Origin: Fulvivirga kasyanovii
GTDB taxonomy: Bacteria; Bacteroidota; Bacteroidia; Cytophagales; Cyclobacteriaceae
Assembly (NCBI RefSeq): GCF_009711405.1
Contig: NZ_SMLW01000652.1
Coordinates: 1 to 36,360, forward strand
Length of the DNA: 36,360 nucleotides
Direction of reading: 5' to 3'
Part shown: one piece after another, positions 7,519 to 30,141 of the stretch
How positions within the stretch are numbered: position 1 is the first letter of the stretch
Layout: every line of letters begins with the position of its first letter
Position numbers and translations under genes: made by a program
Notes under the pieces: model-generated
Databases searched by the model: none
What the model was told of the DNA's origin: nothing
Seen by the model: the letters and a program-made list of their open reading frames with translations, nothing else

Positions 7519-7525
7519 AGTAATA

Positions 7526-12062: not shown

Positions 12063-12806
12063 TTATACCACTTTTATGCCCTTGTTAATAAAAATCTGTA
12101 GTGTGTCATTGGGTTGGTTGATCTCGGTAATCAGGGTCTGCACCTTGAGTATATCGTCAATTTTAAAGGGTTGTATCCGGCTGATGGCGCCTGACAGACA
12201 TAGTGCGATTACATTCCTGGAAGCATCAATAAAGGCCTTCTTGGTCAGGGCTATTTCCCTGTCGCCCCCGGTGATGCCTACATCAGGGTGTATGCTGGGT
12301 GCTTCTATAAGGCATAAATCGGCATGGATGTCTTTGAGGTAATTGATCACTTCCAGTCCGGCACTGACGAGTGATTTGTGTATGATCTTGCCTCCCAGGA
12401 AAATGACTTCAAGGTTCTGAAACTCGCAAAGCTTGGTGGCTATCACCAGTGAGTTGGTAAAGACCAACGCATTAAGGTCTCTGGGCAGGAGGTCTACCAG
12501 CACCAGGTTCACAGGGTTGCCATCGAGAATGATCACCTCATCATTTTTAATGAACTCTTTTGCCTTGTTGGCTATGATCAGCAACTCTTCATTTCGGGTA
12601 GGGTTGATCTGTGCGGAAGTAATGTGCGGGTTTGCCATGGCGCCCCCGTGAACTTTTTTTACAAAGCCATTTTCTGCGAGCTCTTTTAGGTCCCTTCTTA
12701 TAGTGTCCTCCGAAACATTGAGTTTTTTGCTCAGCGTATTGGAGTGTACCTTATTATATAGGCTGATAAGGTGTAATATATAGTTGTGCCGTTCTTCTTT
12801 TAACAT
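12063..12806 (-). CDS. DeoR/GlpR-family transcriptional regulator
   Basis: The protein has 247 residues. The N-terminal winged helix (about 1-57) carries the family pattern: VHSNTLSKKLNVSEDTIRRDL, then ENGFVKKVHGGA. The C-terminal domain (about 75-235) has the DeoR sensor fold (NALVFTNSLVIATKL, VIFLGGKII, GITGGDREIALTKKAFIDAS), which in relatives binds a phosphosugar. The usual DSSK-type ligand motif near the end is replaced by CLSGAIS, and the first ligand loop reads DGNPVN instead of DSGTT, so the effector may differ. As the first gene of the minus-strand operon, directly beside the divergent susC promoter region, it is the likely local regulator of both arms, probably a repressor. No ECF sigma factor, anti-sigma factor or hybrid two-component sensor is visible in the window. 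Confidence 0.9.
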   Translation of the reverse strand: MLKEERHNYILHLISLYNKVHSNTLSKKLNVSEDTIRRDLKELAENGFVKKVHGGAMANPHITSAQINPTRNEELLIIANKAKEFIKNDEVIILDGNPVNLVLVDLLPRDLNALVFTNSLVIATKLCEFQNLEVIFLGGKIIHKSLVSAGLEVINYLKDIHADLCLIEAPSIHPDVGITGGDREIALTKKAFIDASRNVIALCLSGAISRIQPFKIDDILKVQTLITEINQPNDTLQIFINKGIKVV

Positions 12807-16100: not shown

Positions 16101-16246
16101 GACGGAATCTGTTCTTCCTGACAAAGAAGATAGACAACTTCGATCCGGAATCGAGCTACAGCACCACTTCATTTGGTCAGGGTGTGTTGTTCTACAACTT
16201 GCCTACTACCAGAAGCTATGGCTTCAGTGTAACAATTGATTTTTAA
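13154..16246 (+). CDS. susC: SusC-family TonB-dependent outer-membrane glycan transporter
   Basis: The protein has 1030 residues. A signal peptide ending at AKAQ is followed by a CarboxypepD_reg-like domain (VVSGKVIDASENEPLPGVTV, about 22-105), a plug domain (VIIRGNNSLTGNNQPLYVVDG, ISVLKGPNAAALYGSRASNG, about 110-250) and a large beta-barrel ending in the aromatic residue typical of porin-like barrels (GFSVTIDF). No STN signalling domain precedes the plug, so it is not an ECF-sigma-linked version. It forms the outer-membrane channel with the SusD protein encoded 17 bases downstream and imports oligosaccharide or glycopeptide using TonB energy. Its DNA is clearly more AT-rich than the enzyme genes downstream. 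Confidence 0.97.
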   Translation: MFKKLLFIMVIGFCFIIQAKAQVVVSGKVIDASENEPLPGVTVLVEGTSNGTITDSDGNYKIEVKENQSLFFSFVGYESQTIAVGNQSVIDVALMPDITQLTEVVITALGVEREKKALGYSLTEVGGEEVSTVKETNVINSLAGKVAGVVVSPNTFGPGSSTRVIIRGNNSLTGNNQPLYVVDGVPMDNAGFGSSNSNVGDEYSRSDYGNGIADINPDDIASISVLKGPNAAALYGSRASNGVILITTKKGANRKGLGVSFSSSVMFDKPLVLPELQNEYGQGSQGNHDLTTGSSWGAPLDGSSKPYFTGENRPYSAQSDNVKDFFRTGSNIINTLSLAGGNENANVRFSYTNAQANSILPNSDISKHNFNLRSYVKLTDKLSFDSKITYANIEGHNRATLGTEGVVANIYGIPRNIDINDLKDYQQDGSFAVRSYKLEADGDPATDTSNPYWVLYNDRNDDVRDRTFGFFKVDYQFTDNFSAFARIGGDFTSQNIETVNSYGHWFYGQGRFDYSTNKSKEINADFLLSYNKNFGSDFALSANFGGNHRYEEDEKYSFAGNEFKIPTQATVASAKKLRPGYTFRTPKEVNSLYGSAQFAYRETVFLDVTARNDWSSALPADNRSYFYPSASLSVLINEFIDSNQRILSFTKVRASWAQVGNDTDPFQLANTYVLDPEGYLDQTSLSREETLYNPDIKPEQVSTIEFGLEWKMFNNRVYGDFTYYDIQSEDLIWGVRISENSGYKYYNTNVGEMTNKGVELLIGGTPIKTPDFSWDISVNMSHNKNELVELIEDVDNYIFSTTNGGAVVVQATAGGGFGDIYGYDYMRAPNGKIVVNDSGVPVRSSEYTHLGNYQPDWLGGLSNRFTYKNLSFNFLIDARFGGEVYSGADAALDVSGVSERTLQYRTDGVVLDAMVNTGTAEEPVYEQNTASITSQQYFGSLPASEYVYDQTNIRMREMSLVYRLPESVIGNTFIRGASVGLIGRNLFFLTKKIDNFDPESSYSTTSFGQGVLFYNLPTTRSYGFSVTIDF

Positions 16247-16263: not shown

Positions 16264-17946
16264 ATGAAAGCTATATATAACAAAGCAATAACATTGGGTT
16301 TGATAGTGCTGGCATCATGTACATCAGATTTTGATGATTTGAATAAAAAGCCTGGAGCGGTAACTGCAGACCAAGCCAGTGGCAGATATTTTTTAACAAA
16401 CCCACAATATAAGCTTTATGCACCAGGTCGGTTTCCATATTGGAGGGGTCCTCTTATACATGGGGATCGCTATGCAGGGCACTTCTGCTTCGGCTTCGAT
16501 GGTTCATGGTGGACCGATGAATTAGGATATTCCTATAGTGGAGCATATACAGATGCTACATGGGACTGGCTTGCAGGGTATCTTCGAGGAATTGATACTT
16601 ACCTTGACTTAACTGGAGTAGGAGGTGAATTTGAAAATGAAAGGATGCATGCTGTTGGACTTATACTTAAAGGGTTGTATTACCAGAAATTTACGGATAT
16701 TTTTGGGGAGGTGCCTTACTCTGAATCGGGAAATGCTGACATTCTCAATCCTAAGTTTGATACACAGAAAACCATCTACGAAGGCATAATAGCGGAACTT
16801 GACCAGGCCATGGCAACCATTGGCGATGCTACTTCTACAGGTGAAGCCTTGGAGGATTTAGCCGAAAATGATTTGTTTTATCAAGGAGATTTACAAAAGT
16901 GGAAGACGCTTGCCAACACCCTTAAACTGAGGCTGGCCATGCGTGCCCATGGAGCCAGTGGGGCTGATTTTGCCAACTCTGTAATTACAGAAGCCCTAAA
17001 CAGCCCTTTAATTGAAACCCTTGAGGAAAGTGCGCTGCTTGAAAAGGACAAGGTAATTGATCAGTTCAATAGCTCAGCATATGGCGATGTATGGCATAAC
17101 TTCGGGATAGGTTCAAACTGGACAGTGAGCAAGCATCTGATTGATTATTTGAGAAACAATAATGATCCCCGACTGGAAAAATATGCAACTCCTGCCGAGG
17201 GAGGTGATATTTTTGTGCCTAAACCAACTGATGCAGCAGAGCAGAAAGCACTTGACCTGATGCTTGCCAATCTTGATGATGCCGGTGTAGTTTACACTAC
17301 CAAGGATACTGTAATTGATGGTAGTAATAAGGTAAAAGTCTCAATGCCAGAGGATACTCATTATGTTGGGCAACCGTCAAGACTCAACCTTACCAGTTAT
17401 TACTTTGCAAACTATAATTTCTTTTCAAAGCCGGCTGAGATTATTATTCAGAAAAAAGGTAATGGGGATATATTTCCCGAACTTGTACTCACTTCTGCTG
17501 AAACATATTTCTTAAGGGCCGAAGCTGCACTCAAAGGTTTTGGTGGTGATGCCAATACGCTTTATCAGGAAGGTATAAGACAAGGAATGCTATTGTGGGA
17601 GGTAGAGGAAGATGATATTGATGATTTTCTTTCTGCAGCTCCGATTGCCACACTTACTGGCACTACCGAAGAAATGCTTGAGCAGGTCAGCGTTCAAAGA
17701 TGGATCGCAAGCTATACCGATGGCTTTGAGGCCTGGTCAGTGGTACGTAAGTCGGGTTATCCCACGGACGTAGCTGATGGTGTTGATGATCCGGATATCT
17801 ATGGCTTTGGAGAGATCAATGGTGTTTATCCTCAAAGAATGCGATACGGAAGCAATGAAAAGAACACCAATGGCGCTAACCTGCAGGATGCATTGACAAG
17901 GCAAGGTCCTGATCAGCAGGATATTGAGCTTTGGTGGGCAAAATAA
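16264..17946 (+). CDS. susD: SusD-like surface glycan-binding lipoprotein
   Basis: The protein has 560 residues. A lipoprotein signal (LASC) is followed by an acidic CTSDFDDLN stretch, typical of exported Bacteroidota surface lipoproteins. It belongs to the SusD/RagB superfamily, most like the SusD-like_2 branch (ADQASGRYFLTNPQY near the N-terminus, a TPR-like helical core, WIASYTDGFEAWSVVRKSGYP near the C-terminus). The aromatic-rich region about 55-105 (WRGPLIHGDRYAGHF, GSWWTDELGYSYSGAYTDATWDW) may contribute to the glycan-binding face. It caps the adjacent SusC channel. The 145 bases after it (17947-18091) hold no clear terminator, only a weak hairpin near 17968-17991, so read-through to the transporter and enzyme genes is plausible. 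Confidence 0.93.
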   Translation: MKAIYNKAITLGLIVLASCTSDFDDLNKKPGAVTADQASGRYFLTNPQYKLYAPGRFPYWRGPLIHGDRYAGHFCFGFDGSWWTDELGYSYSGAYTDATWDWLAGYLRGIDTYLDLTGVGGEFENERMHAVGLILKGLYYQKFTDIFGEVPYSESGNADILNPKFDTQKTIYEGIIAELDQAMATIGDATSTGEALEDLAENDLFYQGDLQKWKTLANTLKLRLAMRAHGASGADFANSVITEALNSPLIETLEESALLEKDKVIDQFNSSAYGDVWHNFGIGSNWTVSKHLIDYLRNNNDPRLEKYATPAEGGDIFVPKPTDAAEQKALDLMLANLDDAGVVYTTKDTVIDGSNKVKVSMPEDTHYVGQPSRLNLTSYYFANYNFFSKPAEIIIQKKGNGDIFPELVLTSAETYFLRAEAALKGFGGDANTLYQEGIRQGMLLWEVEEDDIDDFLSAAPIATLTGTTEEMLEQVSVQRWIASYTDGFEAWSVVRKSGYPTDVADGVDDPDIYGFGEINGVYPQRMRYGSNEKNTNGANLQDALTRQGPDQQDIELWWAK

Positions 17947-18091: not shown

Positions 18092-19537
18092 ATGGATAAT
18101 GTATCGCAGAATGTCAGTGTAAAAACTGATATGGAGACAAAAAGCTATACCGGGCCTTTTGTTACAGTCACTTTTTTGTTTTTTATGTGGGGGTTCATTA
18201 CCGTAATGAACGATATACTCATCAATACCTTCAAAGGTATATTCGACCTCACCGCCCCGCAACGCGCACTGGTACAGTTCGCGTTCTTTGGGGCATTTTT
18301 TATTGTTTCACTCATTTATTTCATCATTTCCTCTTCAAAAGGCCGCGACCCCATCAACAGGATCGGTTATAAAAATGGTATGGCCATAAGCCTGCTGATC
18401 TGCGGAGTGGGATGTATTGCATTCTACCCTGCTGCTTTGCTTCATTCTTATACAGCCTTCCTCACCGCCCTTTTTGTGCTCGCTTCTGGTGTCACCTGTC
18501 TGCAAATATGTGCCAACCCGTATGCGACTATTTTGGGAAAACCTGAAAGCGCCTCAAGCAGGCTCAACCTGGCCCAGGGATTGAATTCCCTGGGAACTAC
18601 CGTAGGGCCGATTGTAGGTACTATTTTAATTTATCAGGTGTTTTCTTCCGGTGAGCTTACCGTGAATTCCGTGGCCAACACCTACCTGGTCTACGGGCTG
18701 GTGTTCATCGGCTTTAGTGTGCTCACCTTTATGAGTAAAATGCCTGCCTTCAAAAATGAAGATACCATAGAACCCGGACTGGGAGTATTGAAAAACAGGC
18801 ACCTGGCTTTGGGAATAATCGCCATTGCGTTTTACGTAGGCTCAGAGGTGGCCGTGGGTAGCTGGATTGTCGAGTTTTTAAAAGAAGATCATATCGGAGC
18901 GCTGGGCGAAGCTGATGCCAGCTATTTCCTGTCCTACTTTTGGGGCGGACTTATGCTTGGCCGCCTGATTGCCAGCACCTCACTCAATGCAGAAATATCG
19001 CGTTATCAGAAACTGATCAGAATGCTGGTTACTGCTTTTGGAGTGTTCTTCCTTATTTATGTGGTTACCGGCATCAAGTATGAAGGTGGAGGCTTTGTGT
19101 TTTTACCACTGGATTTCAGCTATATTTTACTTTATCTTGTATTAATAGCCATAAATTTTCTGGCTTTTACCATCACTTTTAACAATCCAGCAAAGGCATT
19201 GGTAGTGTTCAGTTCTATTAATGCACTGCTGCTACTCTTAGCCATAACCTCTTCCGGAAAAATCGCCTTCTGGAGCATCATCGGTACAGGATTGTTTTTC
19301 TCTATAGGCTGGTCAAACATATTTTCACTGGCCATTAAAGGACTTGGAAAATTTACCAGCCAGGGATCATCCTTGCTCATTATGGCTATTGTTGGAGGAG
19401 CCATCCTTCCGGGAGTACAAAGCTTTGTGATCCAGTCACATGGTGTACAGTTGTCATTCATCATACCATTGTTGGGTATGGTCTATTTAATTTTTTACGG
19501 AGCCAAAGGGCATCAGGTAACTAAAAAAGGATCATGA
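18092..19537 (+). CDS. MFS sugar permease of the FucP/GluP/NagP group
   Basis: The protein has 481 residues and about 12 predicted membrane helices. The first helix has FMWGFITVMNDILINTF with D41 at the place of Asp46 of E. coli FucP. The motif CLQICANPYATILG carries Q138 where E. coli FucP has Glu135 (CLETAANP). The Gln form is usual in hexose or GlcNAc members (GluP, NagP), so a fucose substrate is less likely than mannose, glucose or GlcNAc. It acts at the inner membrane as a proton-sugar symporter by family knowledge. It precedes the ROK kinase with a 4-base ATGA overlap, which suggests import followed at once by phosphorylation. An internal Met at 18131 is a possible later start. Confidence 0.9.
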   Translation: MDNVSQNVSVKTDMETKSYTGPFVTVTFLFFMWGFITVMNDILINTFKGIFDLTAPQRALVQFAFFGAFFIVSLIYFIISSSKGRDPINRIGYKNGMAISLLICGVGCIAFYPAALLHSYTAFLTALFVLASGVTCLQICANPYATILGKPESASSRLNLAQGLNSLGTTVGPIVGTILIYQVFSSGELTVNSVANTYLVYGLVFIGFSVLTFMSKMPAFKNEDTIEPGLGVLKNRHLALGIIAIAFYVGSEVAVGSWIVEFLKEDHIGALGEADASYFLSYFWGGLMLGRLIASTSLNAEISRYQKLIRMLVTAFGVFFLIYVVTGIKYEGGGFVFLPLDFSYILLYLVLIAINFLAFTITFNNPAKALVVFSSINALLLLLAITSSGKIAFWSIIGTGLFFSIGWSNIFSLAIKGLGKFTSQGSSLLIMAIVGGAILPGVQSFVIQSHGVQLSFIIPLLGMVYLIFYGAKGHQVTKKGS

Positions 19538-20535
19538 AAGAATTAGTAGCAGGAATAGATATAGGAGGTACAGGTACCAAGTTTGGCCTTACTGACCGGG
19601 AAGGTAATGTATTGAGTTCAAGCCAGATCAGCAGTACGAGCCAGGAGAGCTTTGAGGAGTACCTTGAAGAGCTGCATGCAGGCCTGGAAAGCTGTTTAGC
19701 AGAACTGAATGCAACGAACAATGGATATAAAATAGTTGGGATAGGAGTAGGAGCGCCCAATGGCAATTATTATAAAGGCACTATAGATGATGCGCCTAAC
19801 TTGCGCTGGCGAGGTGTTTTGACCTTTGTAGAAGCCTTTAAGCAATATTATGATGTTCCCATAATACTGACCAACGATGCCAATGCAGCAGCACTTGGAG
19901 AGATGCTCTTTGGAGGAGCAAAAGGGCTAAAAGATTTTGTCGTGATCACTTTGGGTACCGGCTTAGGCAGCGGGTTTGTGGTCAATGGTGAATTGCTATA
20001 TGGCTATGATGGCTTTGCCGGAGAAGTAGGTCATACCATTGTAGATGTCAATGGCCGTGAATGCGGATGTGGAAGACAGGGATGCCTGGAAACCTACGTT
20101 TCTGCTCCTGGTTTGGTACGTACGGTTCAGGAGCTGCTGGGGAGATCCGTGGCAAAGTCGGCCCTGAGAAAAGTAAGCTTTGAAGATATGACTTCAGCAC
20201 TGATAGCCCAAAAGGCACAGGTAGGTGATGCAATAGCTTTGCGGGCCTTTGATTATACAGCAGAAATACTCGGACTGAAACTGGCCGACCTCGTGGCACA
20301 CACCAGCCCGGAAACCATATTCCTTTTCGGCGGCCTTGCCAATGCTGGCGACATCCTCTTTGATCCTGTACGCCACTATACCGAAAAATTCATGTTAAAC
20401 CTGTATAAAGACAGGGTGAAGATCCTTCCGTCAGCCATAGGTGAACAAAATGCTGCCATACTTGGAGCCGCTGCACTCATATGGCACGACTTGAAAAATA
20501 TTGAATCCAAACATCAAAACCTTTCCATATGCTAA
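19534..20535 (+). CDS. ROK-family sugar kinase
   Basis: The protein has 333 residues. The phosphate-binding loop is DIGGTGTK (residues 9-16), the catalytic Asp is D115 (TNDANAAALGE), the sugar-contact motif is GEVGH (E164, H167), and the ROK zinc site is H167 with C177, C179 and C184 (CGCGRQGCLE). All key residues of an active ATP-dependent sugar kinase are present. The substrate could be mannose, GlcNAc or glucose; context favours mannose and/or GlcNAc released from N-glycans, and it is the only sugar kinase visible in the locus. It overlaps the permease gene by 4 bases and the following GH92 gene by 7. It is cytoplasmic. Confidence 0.92.
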   Translation: MKELVAGIDIGGTGTKFGLTDREGNVLSSSQISSTSQESFEEYLEELHAGLESCLAELNATNNGYKIVGIGVGAPNGNYYKGTIDDAPNLRWRGVLTFVEAFKQYYDVPIILTNDANAAALGEMLFGGAKGLKDFVVITLGTGLGSGFVVNGELLYGYDGFAGEVGHTIVDVNGRECGCGRQGCLETYVSAPGLVRTVQELLGRSVAKSALRKVSFEDMTSALIAQKAQVGDAIALRAFDYTAEILGLKLADLVAHTSPETIFLFGGLANAGDILFDPVRHYTEKFMLNLYKDRVKILPSAIGEQNAAILGAAALIWHDLKNIESKHQNLSIC

Positions 20536-22871
20536 ACAGCACATTGAAAATATTTAAAAGGAAAAGCAAATTATGGATATGGCTGCCCCTGGTCATACTT
20601 GTGGTAACCGCATGTAGTAAACCAGTAGAGCAGACGGCTGATGAGACAGTCGAAGAAATTCACTACACCCAATATGTAGACCCATTTATAGGTACCGCTG
20701 CACACGGCCATACTTACCCGGGAGCAACGGTACCCTTCGGAATGGTGCAGCTCAGCCCTGATAACGGTACTCACGGCTGGGATTGGGTTTCAGGATACAA
20801 CTATGCAGATAGCGTTATCGTGGGTTTTAGCCATACACACCTCAGTGGCACGGGCATTGGAGACCTGGCAGACGTGCTTTTCATGCCCGTACAGCGGGAA
20901 ATTCAGATCAACAAAATTGTAGCCACCAGAAAAGATTACGACTACAAATCAGCTTTTTCGCATACCAGGGAAATAGCGAAACCAGGATATTACGGCGTGT
21001 ATCTTGATGACAACCAGGTAAAGGTGGAGCTTACTGCCACCGAAAGGGTGGGCTTTCACCAGTATACTTTTGATGGCTCAGGCAAGCCGCAAATTGTTAT
21101 TGATCTGGGCTTTGCGATCAACTGGGACAAACCTGTGGATACACATTTGAAAATAGAGAATGATACCACGCTGGTCGGATATCGAAAGTCAAAAGGATGG
21201 GCTGATAATCAGCAACTATATTTTTCAGTTAAATTCTCAGAGCCGGTCACTTCGTACACCATTTATAAGGATGGAGACCCCACTGAAGGCCCGGAAGCGA
21301 CTTCGCCCAGGCTACTGGCCGTACTTGAATTTGGCGACGGGAGTAAGGTAGTCAGGGCCAAAGTCGGGCTGTCGAGTGCAGATATTACAGGTGCCACCAA
21401 AAGCCTTTCAGAAATTGATCACTGGGACTTTCAGCGTACGAGAAAAGAAGCTTCGGATAAATGGGAGGCAGAGTTAAGCAAAATAAAAGTGCAAAGTGAG
21501 GATAAAGATGCTCTCGAAACTTTTTACACAGCACTTTATCACACCAGTCTGGCCCCGGTACTTTACTCAGATCTGAAAGGGAAATACAAAGGCGCTGACG
21601 GTGAAGTACATCAGGTAGAAGATTATACCAAATACTCAATTTTTTCCCTGTGGGATACCTTCAGGGCGGCCCACCCGCTCTTCACGATCACCCAGCCGGA
21701 AAGGGTGAATGACTTTATCAATTCCATGCTGAGTCACTACGACGAGTATGGTCTGCTGCCGGTGTGGGAGCTGACCGGTAACGAGACCAATACCATGACA
21801 GGCTACCATGCCATTCCGGTGATTACCGATGCCTGGCTCAAAGGGTTTAGTGGCTTTGATAAAGCCAAGGCGTACGAAGCCATGAAAAAGAGTGCCATGC
21901 AGGACATTCGCGGGGTTAATTTTTACAAAGAGTATGGCTATATCCCGGCCAACCTTGAAAACGAATCCGTAACCAAAAACCTGGAGTATGCCTATGATGA
22001 CTGGTGTATAGCGCAGATCGCCAAACTGATGGACAAGCAGGAAGATTATGAATACTTCATGAAGCGGTCTCAGAGCTATAGACACCTGTATGATGCTACA
22101 ACCAAATTTATGAGAGGAAAACTGGCGGATGGAACCTGGAAGGAACCCTTTGACCCCAAATACTCCTCGCACCGGGTAGATGCGGAGTATACCGAAGGTA
22201 ACGCCTGGCAGCATAGCTGGTTTGTACCCCACGATGTGGAAGGGCTGATCAGTTTGATGGGCGGTGAGGAGCCGTTTGTGAAAATGCTCGATTCACTGTT
22301 TAGCGAAAGCTCAGAGATCCATGGAGACAATATCTCTGCTGATATTTCCGGTCTTATCGGGCAGTATGCACATGGTAATGAACCAAGCCATCACATTGCA
22401 TACCTCTACAATTTTGCAGGACAACCCTGGAAAACGCAGAAAACCGTACAAAGAATAACCGGAGAGCTATATAGCAATGATCCCGCTGGCCTTTGCGGTA
22501 ATGAAGACTGTGGCCAGATGTCGGCATGGTATGTTTTTTCAGCACTGGGCTTTTACCCCGTCAACCCTGCCAACAGCATGTATGTTATAGGAACGCCGAT
22601 GTTCGAAAATGTAGCCATCAATCTGCCAGACGACAAACAGTTTGAAATTATAGCAGAAGGTCTGGGAGGGAAAAACACCTACGTTCAAACCGTTGAACTC
22701 AACGGCCAGCCATTGGAAAGGTCATATATCAAACACGGTGAATTAATGGGTGGAGGTACCCTGAAATTTGTAATGGGTCCCGAAATTAACCGAAAATGGG
22801 CCGTAGAAAGTAAGAACTATCCTTATTCAGGACTTGAAAAAGATTTAAAAAATGACACAGAAAACCACTAA
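20529..22871 (+). CDS. GH92 exo-alpha-mannosidase, lipoprotein
   Basis: The protein has 780 residues. The N-terminus has a lipoprotein signal (VVTAC) followed by an acidic stretch (ETVEE). GH92 motifs run along the whole length: YVDPFIGTAAHGHTYPG, VPFGMVQLSPDNG, general acid E556 (YTEGNAWQH), HGNEPSHH (E618) and base D660 (GNEDCGQMSAW) with N658 in place of the second Asp. It is the clear paralogue of the enzyme at 2944-5172, with long identical stretches in the N-terminal domain, and lacks the alpha-1,2 signature. It is the only GH92 in the plus-strand arm. Its end overlaps the NagB/PIG-L start by 20 bases, so an exported enzyme and a cytoplasmic one are translated in close coupling. Confidence 0.95.
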   Translation: MLNSTLKIFKRKSKLWIWLPLVILVVTACSKPVEQTADETVEEIHYTQYVDPFIGTAAHGHTYPGATVPFGMVQLSPDNGTHGWDWVSGYNYADSVIVGFSHTHLSGTGIGDLADVLFMPVQREIQINKIVATRKDYDYKSAFSHTREIAKPGYYGVYLDDNQVKVELTATERVGFHQYTFDGSGKPQIVIDLGFAINWDKPVDTHLKIENDTTLVGYRKSKGWADNQQLYFSVKFSEPVTSYTIYKDGDPTEGPEATSPRLLAVLEFGDGSKVVRAKVGLSSADITGATKSLSEIDHWDFQRTRKEASDKWEAELSKIKVQSEDKDALETFYTALYHTSLAPVLYSDLKGKYKGADGEVHQVEDYTKYSIFSLWDTFRAAHPLFTITQPERVNDFINSMLSHYDEYGLLPVWELTGNETNTMTGYHAIPVITDAWLKGFSGFDKAKAYEAMKKSAMQDIRGVNFYKEYGYIPANLENESVTKNLEYAYDDWCIAQIAKLMDKQEDYEYFMKRSQSYRHLYDATTKFMRGKLADGTWKEPFDPKYSSHRVDAEYTEGNAWQHSWFVPHDVEGLISLMGGEEPFVKMLDSLFSESSEIHGDNISADISGLIGQYAHGNEPSHHIAYLYNFAGQPWKTQKTVQRITGELYSNDPAGLCGNEDCGQMSAWYVFSALGFYPVNPANSMYVIGTPMFENVAINLPDDKQFEIIAEGLGGKNTYVQTVELNGQPLERSYIKHGELMGGGTLKFVMGPEINRKWAVESKNYPYSGLEKDLKNDTENH

Positions 22872-24786
22872 TGCAAGTCAATTGTCAGGGGATAAAAATA
22901 TGTTTGAAAAGATCCCCGTCAAGGTTTATGACGACCCCATCGATGCCTCTGCAGCCGTAGCGCAGGAGATAGCCGGGTTGATCAGGGAAAATGATTCAAA
23001 GGGGGGTAAGTGCGTGCTGGGCCTGGCAACAGGCTCCACGCCTACCAAAGTTTATGCAGAGCTGGTCAGGCTACACCGTGAAGAAGGCCTCAGCTTTAAG
23101 AATGTAATTACCTTCAATCTGGATGAGTACTATCCGATAACCCCGGACTCGTTACAGAGCTATGTCAGGTTTATGAATGAGCACCTGTTTGACCACATCG
23201 ATATACCTGCTGCTAACATTCACATCCCTGACGGTACTCTGCCTGCTGAAGAGGTCGCTGCTTATTGTGTTGAATATGAAAATAAGATTGCTTCCTACGG
23301 AGGACTCGACCTGCAAATATTAGGAATAGGGCGAACAGGCCACATTGGGTTCAATGAGCCAGGCTCTACCATTACCAGCAAAACCCGGTTGATCACCCTT
23401 GACCATGTTACCAAAGTAGACGCTGCCAGCGACTTTTTCGGGGAAGAGAATGTTCCCCGGAAAGCTATCACTATGGGTGTAGGCACCATCATGGAAGCCA
23501 GGCGAATCATCCTCATGGCATGGGGGGAAGGCAAGGCCAGCATCATCAAACGGGCGGTAGAAGGAGAACCCAGCCATGAAGTACCGGCCACATTTCTTCA
23601 AAACCACCCTAACGTACTGGCCGTACTGGATACAGCAGCGGGTGATGAGCTCGTAAGGATCGGTCAGCCATGGATGGTGAGTGACTGCACCTGGACGGCT
23701 GAGCTGCAAAGAAAAGCTGTGATCAACCTGTGTGCTAAAGTGGATAAACCCATCCTAAAACTTACGGACCGTGACTACAATGACAATGGTCTCAGCGACC
23801 TTGTAGCCAACTTTGGGCCGGCCTATGACATCAACATCAGGATATTTAACGAACTGCAGCACACCATCACCGGTTGGCCCGGAGGCAAGCCACATGTAGA
23901 TGACAGCCACCGCCCTGAGCGCGCCGAACCTGCCAAAAAGCGGGTGCTGATCTTCAGTCCGCACCCGGATGACGATGTCATTTCCATGGGAGGTACCCTG
24001 ATCCGCCTCCATGATCAGGGGCATGAAGTACATGTAGCTTATCAGACATCAGGCAACATTGCCGTATTTGATGATGACGTGATCAGGTTTGCCGATTTTG
24101 TCAGCGACTACCACCAATCTTTTGGGTTTGTGAAAGAAAATGCTGACCGCATGTTTGAGCAGGTGGTTACCCAGATCAGGGACAAGGGGCCGGGAGAGAC
24201 TGACAGCAAAGAGGTACAAAATATCAAAGGACTGATCAGAAGAGGGGAGGCAAAAGCAGCCTGCCGCTATATCGGTCTGCCCGAGGAGCATATCCACTTT
24301 CTCGATATGCCTTTCTACGAAACCGGGTTGGTGAAAAAGAAGCCGCTGGGAGAGGAAGATGTAAACATCATTGTTGACCTGATCACAAAGATAAAACCAC
24401 ACCAGATCTATGCTGCGGGCGACCTTTCAGACCCGCACGGTACACACCGGGTATGCCTGGATGCCATTTTCAGGGCACTTAACATCCTTAAAAAAGAGTC
24501 GTGGATGAAAGACTGCTGGGTATGGCTGTACCGGGGCGCCTGGCAGGAGTGGGATATTCACCAGATAGAGATGGCCGTGCCTCTAAGCCCCGGAGAGCTA
24601 TTGAAGAAAAGAAGAGCTATTTTTAAGCACCAGTCCCAGAAAGACAGACCACTGTTCCCAGGTGCCGACAGCCGTGAGTTCTGGCAGCGTGCCGAGCAGC
24701 GGAACCGGGAAACCGCCCACGAATACGACAGGCTCGGCTTGCCGGAGTATGAAGCCATAGAGGCATTTAAGAGATATTTTTATTAG
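22852..24786 (+). CDS. Glucosamine-6-phosphate deaminase-like / PIG-L deacetylase fusion
   Basis: The protein has 644 residues; a later start at 22900 (MFEKIPVKVYDD) is also possible. Residues about 18-300 match NagB, which converts glucosamine-6-phosphate to fructose-6-phosphate and ammonia: FNLDEYY with D91 (Asp72 of E. coli) and LGIGRTGHIGFNEP with H164 and E169. The third triad residue, Asp141 in E. coli, is T162. Residues about 360-644 are a PIG-L/LmbE deacetylase domain with SPHPDDD (H371, D374) and DPHGTHR (H529, H532), a plausible zinc site. There is no signal peptide, so it is cytoplasmic. Homologous fusions exist in other Bacteroidota (the BT0258 type). As no nagA gene is visible, the PIG-L domain may deacetylate GlcNAc-6-phosphate for the NagB domain; this is inference. 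Confidence 0.88.
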   Translation: MTQKTTNASQLSGDKNMFEKIPVKVYDDPIDASAAVAQEIAGLIRENDSKGGKCVLGLATGSTPTKVYAELVRLHREEGLSFKNVITFNLDEYYPITPDSLQSYVRFMNEHLFDHIDIPAANIHIPDGTLPAEEVAAYCVEYENKIASYGGLDLQILGIGRTGHIGFNEPGSTITSKTRLITLDHVTKVDAASDFFGEENVPRKAITMGVGTIMEARRIILMAWGEGKASIIKRAVEGEPSHEVPATFLQNHPNVLAVLDTAAGDELVRIGQPWMVSDCTWTAELQRKAVINLCAKVDKPILKLTDRDYNDNGLSDLVANFGPAYDINIRIFNELQHTITGWPGGKPHVDDSHRPERAEPAKKRVLIFSPHPDDDVISMGGTLIRLHDQGHEVHVAYQTSGNIAVFDDDVIRFADFVSDYHQSFGFVKENADRMFEQVVTQIRDKGPGETDSKEVQNIKGLIRRGEAKAACRYIGLPEEHIHFLDMPFYETGLVKKKPLGEEDVNIIVDLITKIKPHQIYAAGDLSDPHGTHRVCLDAIFRALNILKKESWMKDCWVWLYRGAWQEWDIHQIEMAVPLSPGELLKKRRAIFKHQSQKDRPLFPGADSREFWQRAEQRNRETAHEYDRLGLPEYEAIEAFKRYFY

Positions 24787-24806: not shown

Positions 24807-25778
24807 ATGAAAAGAAGAGACATCCTTAAAATAGCATCCCTTAGCCTGCCGGCATGGGGCATTTCCCAGAGCCTTTTCGGGAAGGTGCTTCCTGCTCCGC
24901 GAAAATCTGCCAAAGGCCCTGTTGTAATATCCACCTGGAACCACGGGCTGATGGCCAATGATGAGGCCTGGAAGGTGCTGGAAAAGAAAGGCAACGCCCT
25001 GGACGCGGCGGAAAAAGGTGTGATGATCGTAGAAAATGATCCTGAAAATCAAACCGTAGGCATTGGAGGTTTTCCTGACAGAGATGGCATAGTTACCCTT
25101 GATGCCTGCGTCATGAGTAAAGACGGATGTGGTGCCGTAGCCTTTTTACAGGATATCAAAAACCCGGTGGCCGTAGCGCGTAAAGTGATGGAAGAAACGC
25201 CACACGTCATGATCGTAGGAGAAGGCGCCAAACAGTTTGCCCTCGCCCAGGGATTTAAGCCGGAAAATTTATTGACGGAGAAAACAGCCAAAGACTATAA
25301 AGAATGGCTCAAAACCTCGGAATACAAACCTGTGATCAACATTGAAAACCACGATACCATCGGCTTGCTGGCCATGGATCATAATGGTGATATTTCCGGG
25401 GCCTGTACCACCAGCGGTGCAGCCTGGAAAATGCACGGCCGGGTGGGTGATTCACCAATTATAGGTGCAGGGCTTTTTGTAGACAACGAAATCGGCGGGG
25501 CATGCGCGACAGGCCTTGGCGAAACCGTGATCAGGTCAGCCGGAAGTGCTATGGTGGTTGAGCTGATGCGCCACGGTTATGAGCCGGCGGAGGCTTGCAA
25601 GGAAGTGCTGAAGCGTATTGTGAAAAACGAAAAGGATATCGCCAACATACAGGTCGGCTTTTTGGCACTGCGCAAAGACGGTACCTATGGAGCGTACAGC
25701 ATCCACAAAGGCTTCACTTATGCAGTCAAAACCCTCGAATTATCAAAATTATTAGACTCACCTGCTGTAAACAGTTAA
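24807..25778 (+). CDS. N4-(beta-N-acetylglucosaminyl)-L-asparaginase (glycosylasparaginase)
   Basis: The protein has 323 residues. The leader MKRRDILKIASLSLPAWG has the twin-Arg look of a Tat signal, so export to the periplasm is likely. It is an Ntn-hydrolase that in its family self-cleaves before the Thr of HDTIG (T184 here), which becomes the N-terminal nucleophile of the beta chain. Substrate-contact residues are in HGRVGDSP (R212, D215) and the SGAAWKMHGRVGDSPIIGAG region closely resembles the Flavobacterium enzyme. It cleaves the GlcNAc-Asn bond left after peptide and glycan are trimmed, yielding aspartate, ammonia and GlcNAc. This is the strongest single sign that the locus is for N-glycans. 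It lies 20 bases after the NagB/PIG-L gene. Confidence 0.95.
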   Translation: MKRRDILKIASLSLPAWGISQSLFGKVLPAPRKSAKGPVVISTWNHGLMANDEAWKVLEKKGNALDAAEKGVMIVENDPENQTVGIGGFPDRDGIVTLDACVMSKDGCGAVAFLQDIKNPVAVARKVMEETPHVMIVGEGAKQFALAQGFKPENLLTEKTAKDYKEWLKTSEYKPVINIENHDTIGLLAMDHNGDISGACTTSGAAWKMHGRVGDSPIIGAGLFVDNEIGGACATGLGETVIRSAGSAMVVELMRHGYEPAEACKEVLKRIVKNEKDIANIQVGFLALRKDGTYGAYSIHKGFTYAVKTLELSKLLDSPAVNS

Positions 25779-25813: not shown

Positions 25814-28354
25814 GTGGCTTTAAAAGTAACGGATAAAAAGAGCGCAAGGGCAAACTTTCGTAATGTTTTAAGTATTAATGAAGGTTGGCAATTTAGAAAG
25901 GCTGGTACCACACAATGGTATGATACCACCGTGCCATCCACCAATTTCACCGACCTTCTGAAACATGGCCTGATAGATGACCCCTTTTACAGGGACAACG
26001 AAACCAAATTGCAATGGATAGAAAATGAAGATTGGGAATATCAGCTCAACTTTGAGATCAAACCCGAAGACCTGGAATACGATGTTGTTAACCTCGTGTT
26101 TGATGGACTGGATACCTACGCAGACGTTTATGTGAATGACATCCTGATATTCAAATCAGACAACATGTTTGTCAAGTGGCAGCATGACTGTAAACAATTA
26201 TTAAAAGCAGGTTCTAACGAATTAAAACTCTATTTTCATTCCCCAATCAAAGTAACCCGGCCACTCTATGAAAAAGCAGGTTTTACTTACCCTGCCGGGA
26301 ATGATAAATCTGATGACAAACTCAGTGTTTATTCCCGTAAGGCACCCTATCACTTCGGCTGGGACTGGGGACCGCGATTTGTAACTTCAGGCATTTGGCG
26401 CCCCGTGTACCTTGAAGCCTGGAATGATCTGGAGATAGCCGACCTTTATGTTGAGCAAAATGCACTGACAGAGAAAAGGGCAGTGATTACTGCCCATGTA
26501 GAGCTTAATGCAGTTGAAGCTCAAAACATTGATTTGCAGCTAACAGCTACATCACCGGAAGGTACAGGCGTTGATGTGAAGAAGGAGCATGTATCGTTGG
26601 AGCAAGGTAAAAACAACATTTCGCTCACCGCTACCATCAGTGATCCCCGGCGATGGTGGCCCAATGGCATGGGCGAGCCCGATCTTTACAAGATAAAAGT
26701 GAAGGCGCAAAAGTATGGTCAGACTGTCGCCGAAAAGCATTTGAAAGTCGGACTGAGAACGATAGAAGTTATAAACAAACCGGATAGTGATGGAGAAAGC
26801 TTCTTTGTTAAAGTCAACGATACCCCTGTTTTCATCAAAGGGGCCAATTACATTCCCTCGGATAGCTTTTTGGATAGGGTCACCTCAGAGAAATACAGGG
26901 AAGTTTTCGATAATGCCGTGGAGGCCAACATGAACATGCTTCGCGTGTGGGGAGGAGGCTTCTATGAAAACGATGAATTCTATGATCTGGCTGATGAACG
27001 TGGCATCATGATCTGGCAGGATTTCATGTTTGCCTGTAGCATGTATCCCGGAGACGACGCTTTTCTCAAAAATGTCGAAAAAGAGGCCGTTTATAACGTA
27101 AAGCGATTGAGAAATCACCCCTCGATAGCTTTGTGGTGTGGCAATAATGAAATTGCTATCGGCTGGGTCTCCTGGGGCTGGCAAAAGGAATTTGGTTATG
27201 ACAATGTCACGCAGATACTCCTGAAAAAGTATTACAATAACCTGTTCCATAAGCTGCTGCCCAATGTTGTCAAAGCGCTGGACCCTGAAAAATTTTACCT
27301 GCCATCTTCCCCGATCAGTGACTGGAAAAAACTGGATGATCTGAAAATCGGCAATAACCATTATTGGGGCGTGTGGCATGGAGAGCTGCCATTCAGCTCT
27401 TACAACACCTATGTCCCCAGGTTCATGAGTGAATATGGCTTTCAGTCATTCCCGGATATCGATTCGGTAAAAAAATATACCGAGCAGGAAGACTGGGATT
27501 TGATGAGCCCTGTAATGTTGCTACACCAAAAGCACCCCAGAGGCAATGCCCTGATCAAAAAATATATGGAGGAGCACTACAGCCAGCCCAAAAACTTCGA
27601 GGCCTTTTTATACCTGAGCCAGTTGCTACAGGCAGAAGGCATTAAAACCGCCATCCATGCCCATCGAAGGAACAAGCCATTCTGTATGGGCACACTTTAC
27701 TGGCAGCAAAATGACTGCTGGCCGGTGGCCTCATGGTCAAGCGTGGATTACTATGGCCGATGGAAAGCGCTCCAGTTTTTTGTTAAAACCGCCTATCAGG
27801 AAATCATAGCCTCTACCATTCAAGAGGATGATCATATTGAGGTCTTTGTCATTTCCGATTCACTTGTGCCTCAAAAAGTTGTTCTCGAAGTAGATGTACT
27901 CGACTTCTCAGGAAAGAAAGTTTACGAAGGCAGACACAACCTGAACATTGCCGAGAATAGTAGCAAAGCCGTGTGCAAGACCACGGTTAAGCAGCTAATT
28001 GAAGGTAAGGATAAGGCCAGCCACATGCTAACTGCGAGAATCGTGAGGGATGGTGAAGTTATTTATGAAGACAATCACTACTTTGTCGAACCTAAAGCCA
28101 TCAAATGGGAAAAGCCGGAAATAGAGGCAAAGTTCAGACAAGAGGCAGGAAGGACTGTAATAGAGCTTTCGGCAAATGTGTTGGCCAGGAATGTATGTTT
28201 AAAAGCATCTGGGTTTGAAAATAACTTTTCAGATAACTATTTTGACCTGGTTCCCGGCAGAAAGAAAACAGTAACAATAAATACAGACGACCACTCCGGG
28301 CTGGAAAAAGACCTGACCGTATATTCACTTTATGATGCCTGTATCGAAATATGA
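25814..28354 (+). CDS. GH2 beta-mannosidase, no signal peptide
   Basis: The protein has 846 residues from a GTG start at 25814. An in-frame TAA at 25799-25801 rules out any N-terminal extension. The sugar-binding domain (LSINEGWQFRKAG, DPFYRDNETKLQWIENEDWEY) and immunoglobulin-like domain precede the TIM barrel with acid/base E446 (WCGNNEIA) and nucleophile E540 (MSEYGFQSFP). The length and the LQWIENEDWEY pattern match beta-mannosidases such as BtMan2A. It would remove the single beta-1,4-mannose of the N-glycan core. No export signal is visible, unlike most Bacteroidota relatives, so it is predicted cytoplasmic. Its TGA overlaps the start of the SSS transporter gene (ATGA). Confidence 0.92.
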   Translation: MALKVTDKKSARANFRNVLSINEGWQFRKAGTTQWYDTTVPSTNFTDLLKHGLIDDPFYRDNETKLQWIENEDWEYQLNFEIKPEDLEYDVVNLVFDGLDTYADVYVNDILIFKSDNMFVKWQHDCKQLLKAGSNELKLYFHSPIKVTRPLYEKAGFTYPAGNDKSDDKLSVYSRKAPYHFGWDWGPRFVTSGIWRPVYLEAWNDLEIADLYVEQNALTEKRAVITAHVELNAVEAQNIDLQLTATSPEGTGVDVKKEHVSLEQGKNNISLTATISDPRRWWPNGMGEPDLYKIKVKAQKYGQTVAEKHLKVGLRTIEVINKPDSDGESFFVKVNDTPVFIKGANYIPSDSFLDRVTSEKYREVFDNAVEANMNMLRVWGGGFYENDEFYDLADERGIMIWQDFMFACSMYPGDDAFLKNVEKEAVYNVKRLRNHPSIALWCGNNEIAIGWVSWGWQKEFGYDNVTQILLKKYYNNLFHKLLPNVVKALDPEKFYLPSSPISDWKKLDDLKIGNNHYWGVWHGELPFSSYNTYVPRFMSEYGFQSFPDIDSVKKYTEQEDWDLMSPVMLLHQKHPRGNALIKKYMEEHYSQPKNFEAFLYLSQLLQAEGIKTAIHAHRRNKPFCMGTLYWQQNDCWPVASWSSVDYYGRWKALQFFVKTAYQEIIASTIQEDDHIEVFVISDSLVPQKVVLEVDVLDFSGKKVYEGRHNLNIAENSSKAVCKTTVKQLIEGKDKASHMLTARIVRDGEVIYEDNHYFVEPKAIKWEKPEIEAKFRQEAGRTVIELSANVLARNVCLKASGFENNFSDNYFDLVPGRKKTVTINTDDHSGLEKDLTVYSLYDACIEI

Positions 28355-30141
28355 AGCTTGAACTGATAGACGTAGTAATCATTGTTGGCTACCTGGTATT
28401 GACCATTGCCCTTGGGTTTTACTTTTCTAAAAAAGCTTCCAAAGACCTGCAAGCCTACTTTTTGGGAGGTAAAACCATTCCCTGGTGGATATTGGGCGTC
28501 TCAAATGCTTCCGGTATGTTTGACATCACCGGCACCATGTGGCTGGTGTCTATGTGCTTCGTCTATGGGCTTAAAAGTGCATGGTTGCCATGGATCTGGC
28601 CCACGTTCAATCAGATATTCCTGATGGTTTATTTATCCGTCTGGTTGCGCAGGTCCAATGTAATGACCGGTGCCGAATGGTTGGAAAAGCGCTTTGGCAA
28701 TGGCCGCGGAGCAGAACTTTCCCAATTGGTGGTGGTTATTTTTGCTTTGATCAGTGTAGTGGGGTTTATTGCCTATACCTTTAAAGGAATTGGCAAGTTT
28801 TCCCAAACCTTCCTGCCATGGGATCTGGAACCCGATACTTATGCACTTATTCTGATTGGTTTTACCTCGCTCTATGTCATCAAAGGCGGAATGTATAGTG
28901 TGGTCATCACCGAGCTTATCCAGTTTGTGATCATGACCATTGCCTCCGTGGCCGTAGGAATTATTGCTATGGACCTCGTGAGTCCCGAAATGCTGGCAGA
29001 GCATATCCCGGAAGGCTGGAAAAATGTATTCTTCGGGTCGCACCTTGAACTGGACTGGACGGGCATCATCAATTCTGTCAACACCAAAATCAGTGAAGAC
29101 GGTTTTACATGGTTCTCATTCTTTGTAATGATGATGCTCTTCAAAGGCGTACTGGTAAGTATGGCAGGCCCCGTGCCTAACTATGATATGCAGAGGATCC
29201 TGGCAACCAAAACCGCAAAAGATGCAGCCAAAATGAGCGGCCTGGTGTCGCTGGTGATGTATTTCCCGCGCTACATGCTCGTTACAGGCCTTACCATTCT
29301 GGCCATAGTATTTCTCGGTCCAAAGATCAGTACGGAATCAGGCTTTGATTTTGAAATGATCCTGCCTTATTCCATCAATAATTTCATTCCTGTCGGTTTT
29401 ACAGGGCTGCTGCTGGCAGGGTTAATTGCTGCATTTATGTCAACTTATGCCGCTACCGTCAATGCAGCCCCTGTATATTTTGTTAATGATATCTACAAAA
29501 AATACATCAAACCGGATGGAAGCAGAAAACTGTACGTAAGGGCAAGTTACATTGCTTCCTTCGTGATCATCGTGTTGGGTATTTCTTTTGGTTTCATTAT
29601 TGAATCCATCAATTCCGTAACTCAATGGATATTCGGAGCCCTTTTCGGTGGCTACACCGCAGCCAATCTGCTGAAGTGGTACTGGTGGAGGTTCAACGGC
29701 TTTGGCTATTTCTGGGGCATGATGGCCGGTTTGGCAGCTTCACTGATATTGCCTTTTCTGTTTCCTGAGGTTCAGCCGCTTTACGCCTTCCCGTTTATTC
29801 TCCTGGTCTCCTTGGTTGGGTCAATAGGAGGTTCCCTGCTCACCAGGCCCGATAATGAAGAAACCCTGATCGACTTCTACAAAAGCGTAAGGCCCTGGGG
29901 CTGGTGGGGGCCCGTTAAAAAGATGACCATCGAAAGATACCCTGACTTTCAGCCAAATAAGAATGCAGGCAGGGATGCTTTTAATATCGTGATTGGAATG
30001 ATCTGGCAGTTTACCCTTGTCGTTATGCCGATCTACCTGGTTATAAGAGAATTGTGGTCGATGCTGATCGCATTTTTGATTTTCGCTGTAGCATCTGTGA
30101 TCCTAAAGAAAAACTGGCTCGACAAGCTGGAAAATGATTAA
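28351..30141 (+). CDS. Sodium:solute symporter (SSS family)
   Basis: The protein has 596 residues and about 13-15 hydrophobic helices. N-terminal LVLTIALGFYFSKKASKDLQAYFLGGKTIPWW and the helix AAFMSTYAATVNA are typical of the SSS family; S364 and T365 in the latter fit the conserved sodium-site pair of vSGLT. It is an inner-membrane sodium-coupled importer. The start overlaps the GH2 stop by 4 bases and the next gene begins 3 bases after its stop, so it belongs to the operon core. Because the coupled beta-mannosidase is cytoplasmic, a beta-mannosyl disaccharide or free mannose is the likely cargo (inference). Some GH29-linked SSS proteins carry fucose, so fucose is an alternative. Confidence 0.9.
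   Translation: MKLELIDVVIIVGYLVLTIALGFYFSKKASKDLQAYFLGGKTIPWWILGVSNASGMFDITGTMWLVSMCFVYGLKSAWLPWIWPTFNQIFLMVYLSVWLRRSNVMTGAEWLEKRFGNGRGAELSQLVVVIFALISVVGFIAYTFKGIGKFSQTFLPWDLEPDTYALILIGFTSLYVIKGGMYSVVITELIQFVIMTIASVAVGIIAMDLVSPEMLAEHIPEGWKNVFFGSHLELDWTGIINSVNTKISEDGFTWFSFFVMMMLFKGVLVSMAGPVPNYDMQRILATKTAKDAAKMSGLVSLVMYFPRYMLVTGLTILAIVFLGPKISTESGFDFEMILPYSINNFIPVGFTGLLLAGLIAAFMSTYAATVNAAPVYFVNDIYKKYIKPDGSRKLYVRASYIASFVIIVLGISFGFIIESINSVTQWIFGALFGGYTAANLLKWYWWRFNGFGYFWGMMAGLAASLILPFLFPEVQPLYAFPFILLVSLVGSIGGSLLTRPDNEETLIDFYKSVRPWGWWGPVKKMTIERYPDFQPNKNAGRDAFNIVIGMIWQFTLVVMPIYLVIRELWSMLIAFLIFAVASVILKKNWLDKLEND

Follow-up and report, generated by a model that had tools for sequence, protein, structure and literature searches.

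A NagB/PIG-L fusion protein as a probable stand-in for NagA in amino sugar catabolism of Bacteroidota

Introduction

Chitin, N-glycans, and peptidoglycan supply N-acetylglucosamine (GlcNAc), a major source of carbon and nitrogen whose textbook route of use passes through NagA, an enzyme with an amidohydrolase fold (profile TIGR00221). The product is a substrate of NagB, the glucosamine-6-phosphate (GlcN-6-P) deaminase; in the Escherichia coli enzyme we take the catalytic roles to be those of Asp72, Asp141, His143, and Glu148. N-deacetylation of GlcNAc-containing substrates is also carried out by archaeal diacetylchitobiose deacetylase (Dac) and by BshB, both belonging to the LmbE/PIG-L superfamily. 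Proteins that join a NagB-type part to a PIG-L-type part are collected in NCBIfam as NF002557 (PRK02122), "glucosamine-6-phosphate deaminase-like protein," a name that gives the C-terminal half no function; the B. theta gene BT_0258 presumably encodes a member. In the open-licence literature we found no published proposal that pairs PIG-L with NagB or with glucosamine-6-phosphate deaminase. Here we analyze such a fusion in a stretch of 36,360 nucleotides from Fulvivirga kasyanovii (Bacteroidota; contig NZ_SMLW01000652.1 of assembly GCF_009711405.1, positions 1 to 36,360 of the forward strand), which we refer to as the window.

We consider it probable, though well short of certain, that this fusion is a bifunctional N-acetylglucosamine-6-phosphate (GlcNAc-6-P) deacetylase/GlcN-6-P deaminase. 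Its C-terminal PIG-L/LmbE half would act as a one-metal deacetylase that takes the acetate off GlcNAc-6-P, and its N-terminal NagB half would then convert GlcN-6-P into fructose-6-phosphate and ammonia. The protein, which is probably cytoplasmic, would in this way cover the work of both NagA and NagB. Although the PIG-L half would catalyze the same step as NagA, the two are unrelated in fold and motif, and the PIG-L half would be a functional stand-in and not a member of that family. What the sequence itself shows is the two halves with their active sites intact, the content of the cluster, and no NagA match. We infer the two activities, the order of the steps, and the location, and, from genome content and gene order, GlcNAc-6-P as the substrate to be deacetylated. 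The folds and the pathway are already known; what would be new is that one step is probably replaced, widely across the phylum and so far without having been recognised.

Results and discussion

The fusion protein and its NagB half

The gene and the features of its two halves are as follows; 1cd5 is E. coli NagB.

22852..24786, + strand: NagB/PIG-L fusion gene, 644 amino acids, without internal stop
22936..23604, + strand: NagB-type half, residues 29-251 (Pfam Glucosamine_iso, 2.8e-25)
23122..23124, + strand: D91, counterpart of E. coli Asp72 (1cd5 alignment; D in 127 of 132 fusions)
23335..23337, + strand: T162, where E. coli has Asp141 (1cd5 alignment; T, N, or S usual)
23341..23343, + strand: H164, counterpart of E. 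coli His143 (1cd5 alignment; H in 130 of 132 fusions)
23356..23358, + strand: E169, counterpart of E. coli Glu148 (1cd5 alignment; E in 132 of 132 fusions)
23947..24477, + strand: PIG-L/LmbE half, Pfam-matched residues 366-542 (Pfam PIG-L, 3.3e-20)
23962..23976, + strand: HPDDD, residues 371-375, with metal ligands H371 and D374 and proposed general base D373
24436..24447, + strand: HGTH, residues 529-532, with H532 as third metal ligand

The protein scores 1098.6 bits with NF002557 (cut-off 384), the match covering its full length (residues 7-642 on profile positions 15-650 of 653). Neither TIGR00221 nor Amidohydro_1 is among the families listed for it at E 0.001, and a NagA-type amidohydrolase domain was thus not found. 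Judged by these profile matches, it is by membership a NagB-family part and a PIG-L-family part joined as in NF002557, and not a NagA. Translation may in fact begin at a later in-frame ATG, at 22900, because the one at 22852 overlaps the end of the preceding glycoside hydrolase family 92 (GH92) gene and the matches to many relatives set in only at about residue 18. For the entire fusion, AlphaFold2 gave a model with a mean predicted local distance difference test score (pLDDT) of 85.2; in a structure search with this model the NagB structures from B. burgdorferi, E. coli, and B. subtilis ranked first, followed by 6-phosphogluconolactonases and, from rank 48, by diacetylchitobiose deacetylases. 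No relative of the fusion was found in the viral contigs that were searched.

The initial annotation had described a NagB-type domain with D91, T162, H164, and E169, and both the Pfam match and the alignment to E. coli NagB agree with that description. With the NagB equivalog profile TIGR00502 the fusion scores 257 bits, above the cut-off of 236.9. It has the fold and the counterparts of Asp72, His143, and Glu148 in common with the NagBs of E. coli (1dea) and B. subtilis (2bkv), but differs from them in the attached PIG-L domain and in the Thr at the position of E. coli Asp141, which is Asn in B. subtilis. The initial annotation had regarded this Thr as an altered catalytic triad that may change the ring-opening step or the substrate, and had proposed an alignment of the fusions at position 162. 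We made this alignment with 132 full-length sequences (131 fetched loci and the window), which represent 99 of the 100 genomes with a fusion in a sample of 247 Bacteroidota genomes; partial matches in genomes G246, G099, and G030 were excluded. Position 162 is T in 80 sequences, N in 25, S in 25, and V in 2, and never D. The characterised B. subtilis NagB has N at the aligned position, and stand-alone NagBs of the phylum (n = 9) have N in eight cases and T in one. Three of the 12 stand-alone matches had been set aside for this count, namely the PIG-L protein of genome G219 and two weak NagB-like proteins (L100 and L121), which also have N. The fusion does not have the Asp of E. coli position 141, and an Asp there is not general to the NagB family; T, N, or S being ordinary in the fusions and stand-alone NagBs, we rejected an effect of T162 on ring opening or substrate.

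The PIG-L half

LmbE enzymes, as described in a review, bind their metal through an HXD1D2 motif and a further His, with D1 as base (PMC4101496). The fusion has this site as H371-P-D373-D374 and H532, so that the fused PIG-L domain with intact HPDDD (371-375) and HGTH (529-532), as first annotated, could be confirmed. Conserved columns of this half extend to residue 637, past the Pfam match. The AlphaFold2 model of residues 337-644 alone (mean pLDDT 81.5) has an LmbE-like fold, with Z 22.9 and 2.4 Å over 203 residues for BshB, Z 22.6 and 2.7 Å over 218 residues for Dac, and Z 19.6 for MshB. UDP-GlcNAc 2-epimerase and others, at Z of 9.1 or less, were set aside as sharing a common arrangement. 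The fusion thus has the fold (Z of about 22 to 23) and the HXDD...H metal site in common with Dac and BshB, and N-deacetylation of a GlcNAc-containing substrate is proposed for it as well; it differs from them in being only about 20 to 25% identical, in its longer C-terminal part, in the attached NagB, and in a substrate that is probably phosphorylated.

By sequence, the nearest solved relatives of this half are the Pyrococcus diacetylchitobiose deacetylases, which by fold are also in the best group. This would suit another explanation, namely that the PIG-L half deacetylates unphosphorylated GlcNAc (or diacetylchitobiose) like archaeal Dac, with a kinase subsequently supplying the NagB half with GlcN-6-P. 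We think this rather unlikely: by fold BshB is as near as Dac, and the NagB partner takes a 6-phosphate. The gene order, discussed below, also bears on this choice.

In support of GlcNAc-6-P deacetylation by the fusion, the PIG-L site is well maintained across the 132 sequences: H371 is kept in 132, D373 in 128, D374 in 132, H529 in 129, and H532 in 130, so that H371, D374, and, in the NagB half, E169 are invariant. The residues are kept equally well in genomes with NagA (38 sequences) and without it (94 sequences), and a loss in the NagA-bearing genomes, which redundancy of the half there would predict, was not seen (D373 in 36 of 38, compared with 92 of 94 in the NagA-less genomes). Five fusions lack D91, having Y in L072 and L088 (with H164N and T162V in addition) and N, A, and S in L180, L181, and L182, respectively. 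All five keep HPDDD and HGTH; their genomes, from two families, are NagA-less, and each has a separate NagB above the cut-off elsewhere; in G215 the matched stretch of this NagB contains a single TAG in frame. The NagB half of these five is not strongly diverged overall, and a structural or binding role is possibly kept.

NagA in the own genome and across the phylum

The genome of F. kasyanovii (7,174,754 bases, stated completeness 100) yielded 16 NagA candidates, and each of them was scored; the highest single match to TIGR00221 was 32.2 bits (cut-off 225.65). Amidohydro_1 matches were found at 10 places, five of which are urease, an Xaa-Pro dipeptidase homologue (below the cut-off of that NCBIfam family), adenine deaminase, imidazolonepropionase (HutI), and formimidoylglutamate deiminase (HutF). 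The remaining five proteins score far under every NCBIfam cut-off among the matches listed, and with TIGR00221 the 10 whole proteins reach at most 54.3 bits where such a match is listed. The absence of nagA from the window, noted in the initial annotation together with the proposal of a genome-wide search, therefore holds for the whole genome as well.

The phylum sample, for which a completeness of at least 90 was asked and which includes the own genome, was scored with at most four candidates per genome in the fusion search and at most seven in the NagA search, so that the copy numbers are minimum values and a NagA with a low rank in the initial search may have escaped notice. The curated NagA cut-off is passed by 34 of the 247 genomes. 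The line used here was chosen after the scores were known, the best match being at least 168.5 bits in 42 genomes and at most 38.5 bits in the rest. The fusion is above its own cut-off in 100 genomes, 76 of which have no NagA and 24 of which have it; 18 genomes have NagA without the fusion and 129 have neither. No NagA was found in the sample for 39 of the 56 genera and 17 of the 23 families with the fusion. Compared with 23 genomes that have a stand-alone NagB (E 1e-60 or better) and no fusion, NagA is rarer in the fusion genomes (24 of 100 against 14 of 23; Fisher p = 0.001, confounded with lineage), also when genera are counted (17 of 56 against 13 of 21; p = 0.018, with the same confounding).

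Gene order and the substrate

The gene order in other genomes bears on the substrate of the PIG-L half. In the NagA-less genomes G049 and G186, from the same family as F. kasyanovii, four genes line up on the same strand: one for a BadF-like kinase (24.0 bits, under the Pfam cut-off of 31.5), murQ, one for a protein of about 200 amino acids, and the fusion gene. murQ encodes N-acetylmuramic acid-6-phosphate (MurNAc-6-P) etherase and scores 331.7 bits with TIGR00274. MurQ yields GlcNAc-6-P, and catabolism therefore next needs a GlcNAc-6-P deacetylase and NagB. The protein between murQ and the fusion (L075:10513-11106 and L078:10558-11160, both on the minus strand) has no Pfam match. MurQ is near five other fusions, on the opposite strand. 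Counted at E 1e-30 (178 genomes, 172 of them above the cut-off), it occurs in 99 of the 100 fusion genomes and also in 79 of the 147 others.

The row speaks against deacetylation of free GlcNAc, as MurQ makes GlcNAc-6-P and not free GlcNAc. In favor of it are the kinases near the fusions (ROK at 13 and BadF-like at 6 of the 131 loci) and a B. theta ROK homologue that is reported to phosphorylate GlcN as well as GlcNAc (PMC11300592). Taken together, the MurQ gene order and the NagB partner favor GlcNAc-6-P as the likely substrate. A further hint may come from the NagA-less genome G219, in which a NagB (L193:8562-9356) and a PIG-L protein (L193:7678-8595) are encoded in two open frames on one strand; the latter is 37% identical to the PIG-L half of the fusion and has intact HPDDD and HGTH. 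As the PIG-L frame has no ATG before the motif but only TTG codons, the pair may represent either two genes that are coupled or one fusion gene with a change of frame, and it seems the weaker evidence for the proposed function.

Genes of glycan and amino sugar use are found near many of the fusions. At 65 of the 131 fusion loci (in 54 genomes; a count made without comparison to random loci) at least one such gene from our probe list lies within about 8.5 kb. The probes were single sequences, applied at E 1e-12, and 14 of the 131 loci have a flank under 7 kb. Besides the kinases and MurQ (7 loci), we found GH20 at 24 loci, GH92 at 12, DUF5009 at 11, AnmK and GHL10 at 10 each, GH18 and fucosidase at 8 each, and glycosylasparaginase at 1.

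Observations that weigh against the proposal, and other substrates

A number of observations weigh against GlcNAc-6-P deacetylation by the fusion as a replacement of NagA. The replacement is not universal, as 24 of the fusion genomes hold both enzymes, including G068, in which nagA directly adjoins a fusion (the two are near each other at 2 of the 131 loci, in G068 and G245). Redundancy, different regulation, or different substrates could explain these genomes. In a further set of 36 fusion genomes, drawn from named records, for which, as for the own genome, all or nearly all NagA candidates were scored, 16 have NagA (13 above the cut-off) and 20 do not; two genomes of this set, G038 and G158, are also in the first sample and gave agreeing results. 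Flavobacterium johnsoniae CI04, with at least two fusion loci (L231 and L250), is one of those with NagA, and Cytophaga aurantiaca and Flavobacterium pectinovorum are among those without it. NagA is also absent from 9 of the 23 genomes with a stand-alone NagB. The association between fusion and NagA is confounded by lineage: the contrast is not independent of it because no family holds both fusion genomes and stand-alone-NagB genomes. Outside the phylum, the fusion occurs in 18 of 148 Planctomycetota genomes (reached through a Mariniblastus record). NagA above the cut-off is found in none of these 18 but in 11 of 28 stand-alone-NagB genomes; at 130 bits or more, the numbers are 13 of 18 and 19 of 28, without a difference. 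Of the 50 genomes with a match, 46 entered this test, 4 with a weak NagB (E worse than 1e-60) being excluded. The outcome depends on the score threshold, and therefore it is no firm replication.

Published data on F. johnsoniae point in the same direction. In one study, deletion of the nagB of the chitin locus is without effect on chitin use, three more nagB-like genes are reported, Fjoh_4557 is treated as a plain NagB that was not expressible, and NagA is assigned elsewhere (PMC5127042). We compare Fjoh_4557 with the fusion by its description as the NagB gene of a chitin utilisation locus.

MurQ alone does not demand deacetylation of GlcNAc-6-P, since 61 of the 247 genomes encode MurQ although NagA and the fusion are both missing. 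Together with the stand-alone-NagB genomes that lack NagA, they indicate that deacetylation of GlcNAc-6-P need not take place in every genome. These 61 genomes, the 24 fusion genomes that keep NagA, the presence of two to four fusion copies (lower bounds) in 22 of 99 fusion genomes, and the AnmK and GHL10 genes near 10 loci each would all fit a different substrate: the PIG-L half might act on another amino sugar phosphate or precursor (N-acetylgalactosamine-6-phosphate [GalNAc-6-P], N-acetylmannosamine-6-phosphate, or an anhydro or muramic sugar), with GlcNAc-6-P going to NagA where present or to cell wall synthesis. We regard this as improbable, because the NagB half keeps the residues of a GlcN-6-P deaminase and scores above the equivalog cut-off, and because AgaS, the isomerase of the GalNAc pathway, was matched in only 4 of the 24 genomes with both enzymes, each time below the curated cut-off. 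The AgaS count also led us to set aside the idea that the NagA of fusion genomes is a GalNAc-6-P enzyme; it explains at most a few of these genomes, and in the four with an AgaS match the amidohydrolase itself may be such an enzyme.

The last group of contrary observations concerns lost active sites. Four second copies from one genus (L161, L163, L164, and L166) carry D373A and thereby lack the general base, and two of them lack a metal ligand as well (H532Y); in each of their genomes, the PIG-L half of a further copy is intact. The NagA-less genome G146 has a single fusion, L097, and this carries H529N. Dead halves are not clearly faster evolving: the copies with a dead PIG-L half have an excess PIG-L divergence of 11.0 to 13.9 points (ranks 108 to 118 of 132), and those with a dead NagB half have divergence ranks of 14 to 98 of 132. 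The four copies could be taken to mean that the PIG-L half is inactive or has a regulatory or structural role and that the protein is a GlcN-6-P deaminase only. Against this stand the conservation of catalytic and metal residues in 128 to 132 of the 132 sequences and the five fusions with an intact PIG-L site and a lost NagB site, and we hold it to be very improbable. Either half can thus lose its site without the other, which is an argument for separate tasks of the two.

The proposal in the initial annotation that the fusion may replace NagA thus stands in part: NagA is absent here and in 76 of the 100 fusion genomes, the PIG-L site is kept, and murQ stands in a row with the fusion in two NagA-less genomes, all of which supports replacement by inference. 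If it is true, a different deacetylase serves many members of this large phylum of glycan degraders, as the NagA-less share of the sampled carriers indicates, and the fusion would explain how many of them, F. kasyanovii included, manage without nagA. Pathway predictors that look for NagA only would wrongly call the pathway incomplete in such genomes, and a sugar phosphate would be added to the substrates of the LmbE/PIG-L superfamily. In a more far-reaching version, NagA-less Bacteroidota and some Planctomycetota would rely chiefly on the PIG-L half for the deacetylation of GlcNAc-6-P, in glycan scavenging as well as in MurQ-based cell wall recycling, with direct hand-over of GlcN-6-P between the two sites; we put this forward tentatively, as a possibility about which we are more doubtful than convinced.

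The surrounding cluster and a second fusion in the same genome

In the window, the fusion gene is part of a cluster that runs from a SusC gene to a GH20 gene, all on the strand of the fusion and with small gaps or overlaps. The minus-strand genes listed last lie outside this cluster.

13154..16246, + strand: SusC-type TonB-dependent receptor, first gene of the same-strand cluster
16264..17946, + strand: SusD-type lipoprotein
18092..19537, + strand: major facilitator superfamily (MFS) sugar transporter (above the GluP cut-off; FucP and NagP matches below theirs)
19534..20535, + strand: ROK-family sugar kinase, candidate GlcNAc kinase
20529..22871, + strand: GH92 alpha-mannosidase, overlapping the annotated start of the fusion
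24807..25778, + strand: glycosylasparaginase, cleaving GlcNAc-Asn (1.1e-117 to the solved N4-(beta-N-acetylglucosaminyl)-L-asparaginase 3ljq)
25814..28354, + strand: GH2-type beta-mannosidase
28351..30141, + strand: sodium:solute symporter
30145..31923, + strand: alpha-L-fucosidase with PA14 domain
31920..34250, + strand: GH20 beta-N-acetylhexosaminidase
2944-5172, 5185-7566, and 9799-12057, - strand: three further GH92 genes
12063-12806, - strand: DeoR-type regulator
1231-2925, - strand: weak manA-like match

By its annotated content, the cluster is a gene set for dismantling N-glycans down to GlcNAc-Asn. The GH92, GH2, and GH20 enzymes, the fucosidase, and the glycosylasparaginase would release mannose, fucose, GlcNAc, and Asp. 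GlcNAc would be imported by the MFS or the sodium:solute symporter carrier and phosphorylated by the ROK kinase, and the fusion would perform the last step. For the route from GlcNAc to fructose-6-phosphate, the cluster has candidate carriers, a candidate kinase, and the deaminase, and only NagA is missing. A GHL10 protein and a carbohydrate-binding module family 9 (CBM9) protein are also encoded upstream on the opposite strand, and positions 1231-34250 of the window make up an almost complete region for N-glycan utilisation. The GH20 gene that closes the cluster is followed by a gene for a rhomboid-domain protein of 504 amino acids (34337-35851, + strand).

A second, closely related fusion is present in the own genome (L054, C154:7463-9391), near genes for GH20, a ROK kinase, SusC, SusD, a symporter, and a DUF5009 protein (L054:3634-4767, minus strand). 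For NagX, a mutant-fitness study proposes conversion of GlcN to GlcNAc, followed by phosphorylation and deacetylation (PMC9007349). In that study NagA took part in the use of glucosamine in four of five bacteria (Fig 3A-3D), and Echinicola vietnamensis is assigned to Fig 3E. Of the 11 fusion loci with a DUF5009 relative nearby, 5 are in NagA-less genomes. The DUF5009 protein itself we assume to be possibly a NagX-like acetylase.

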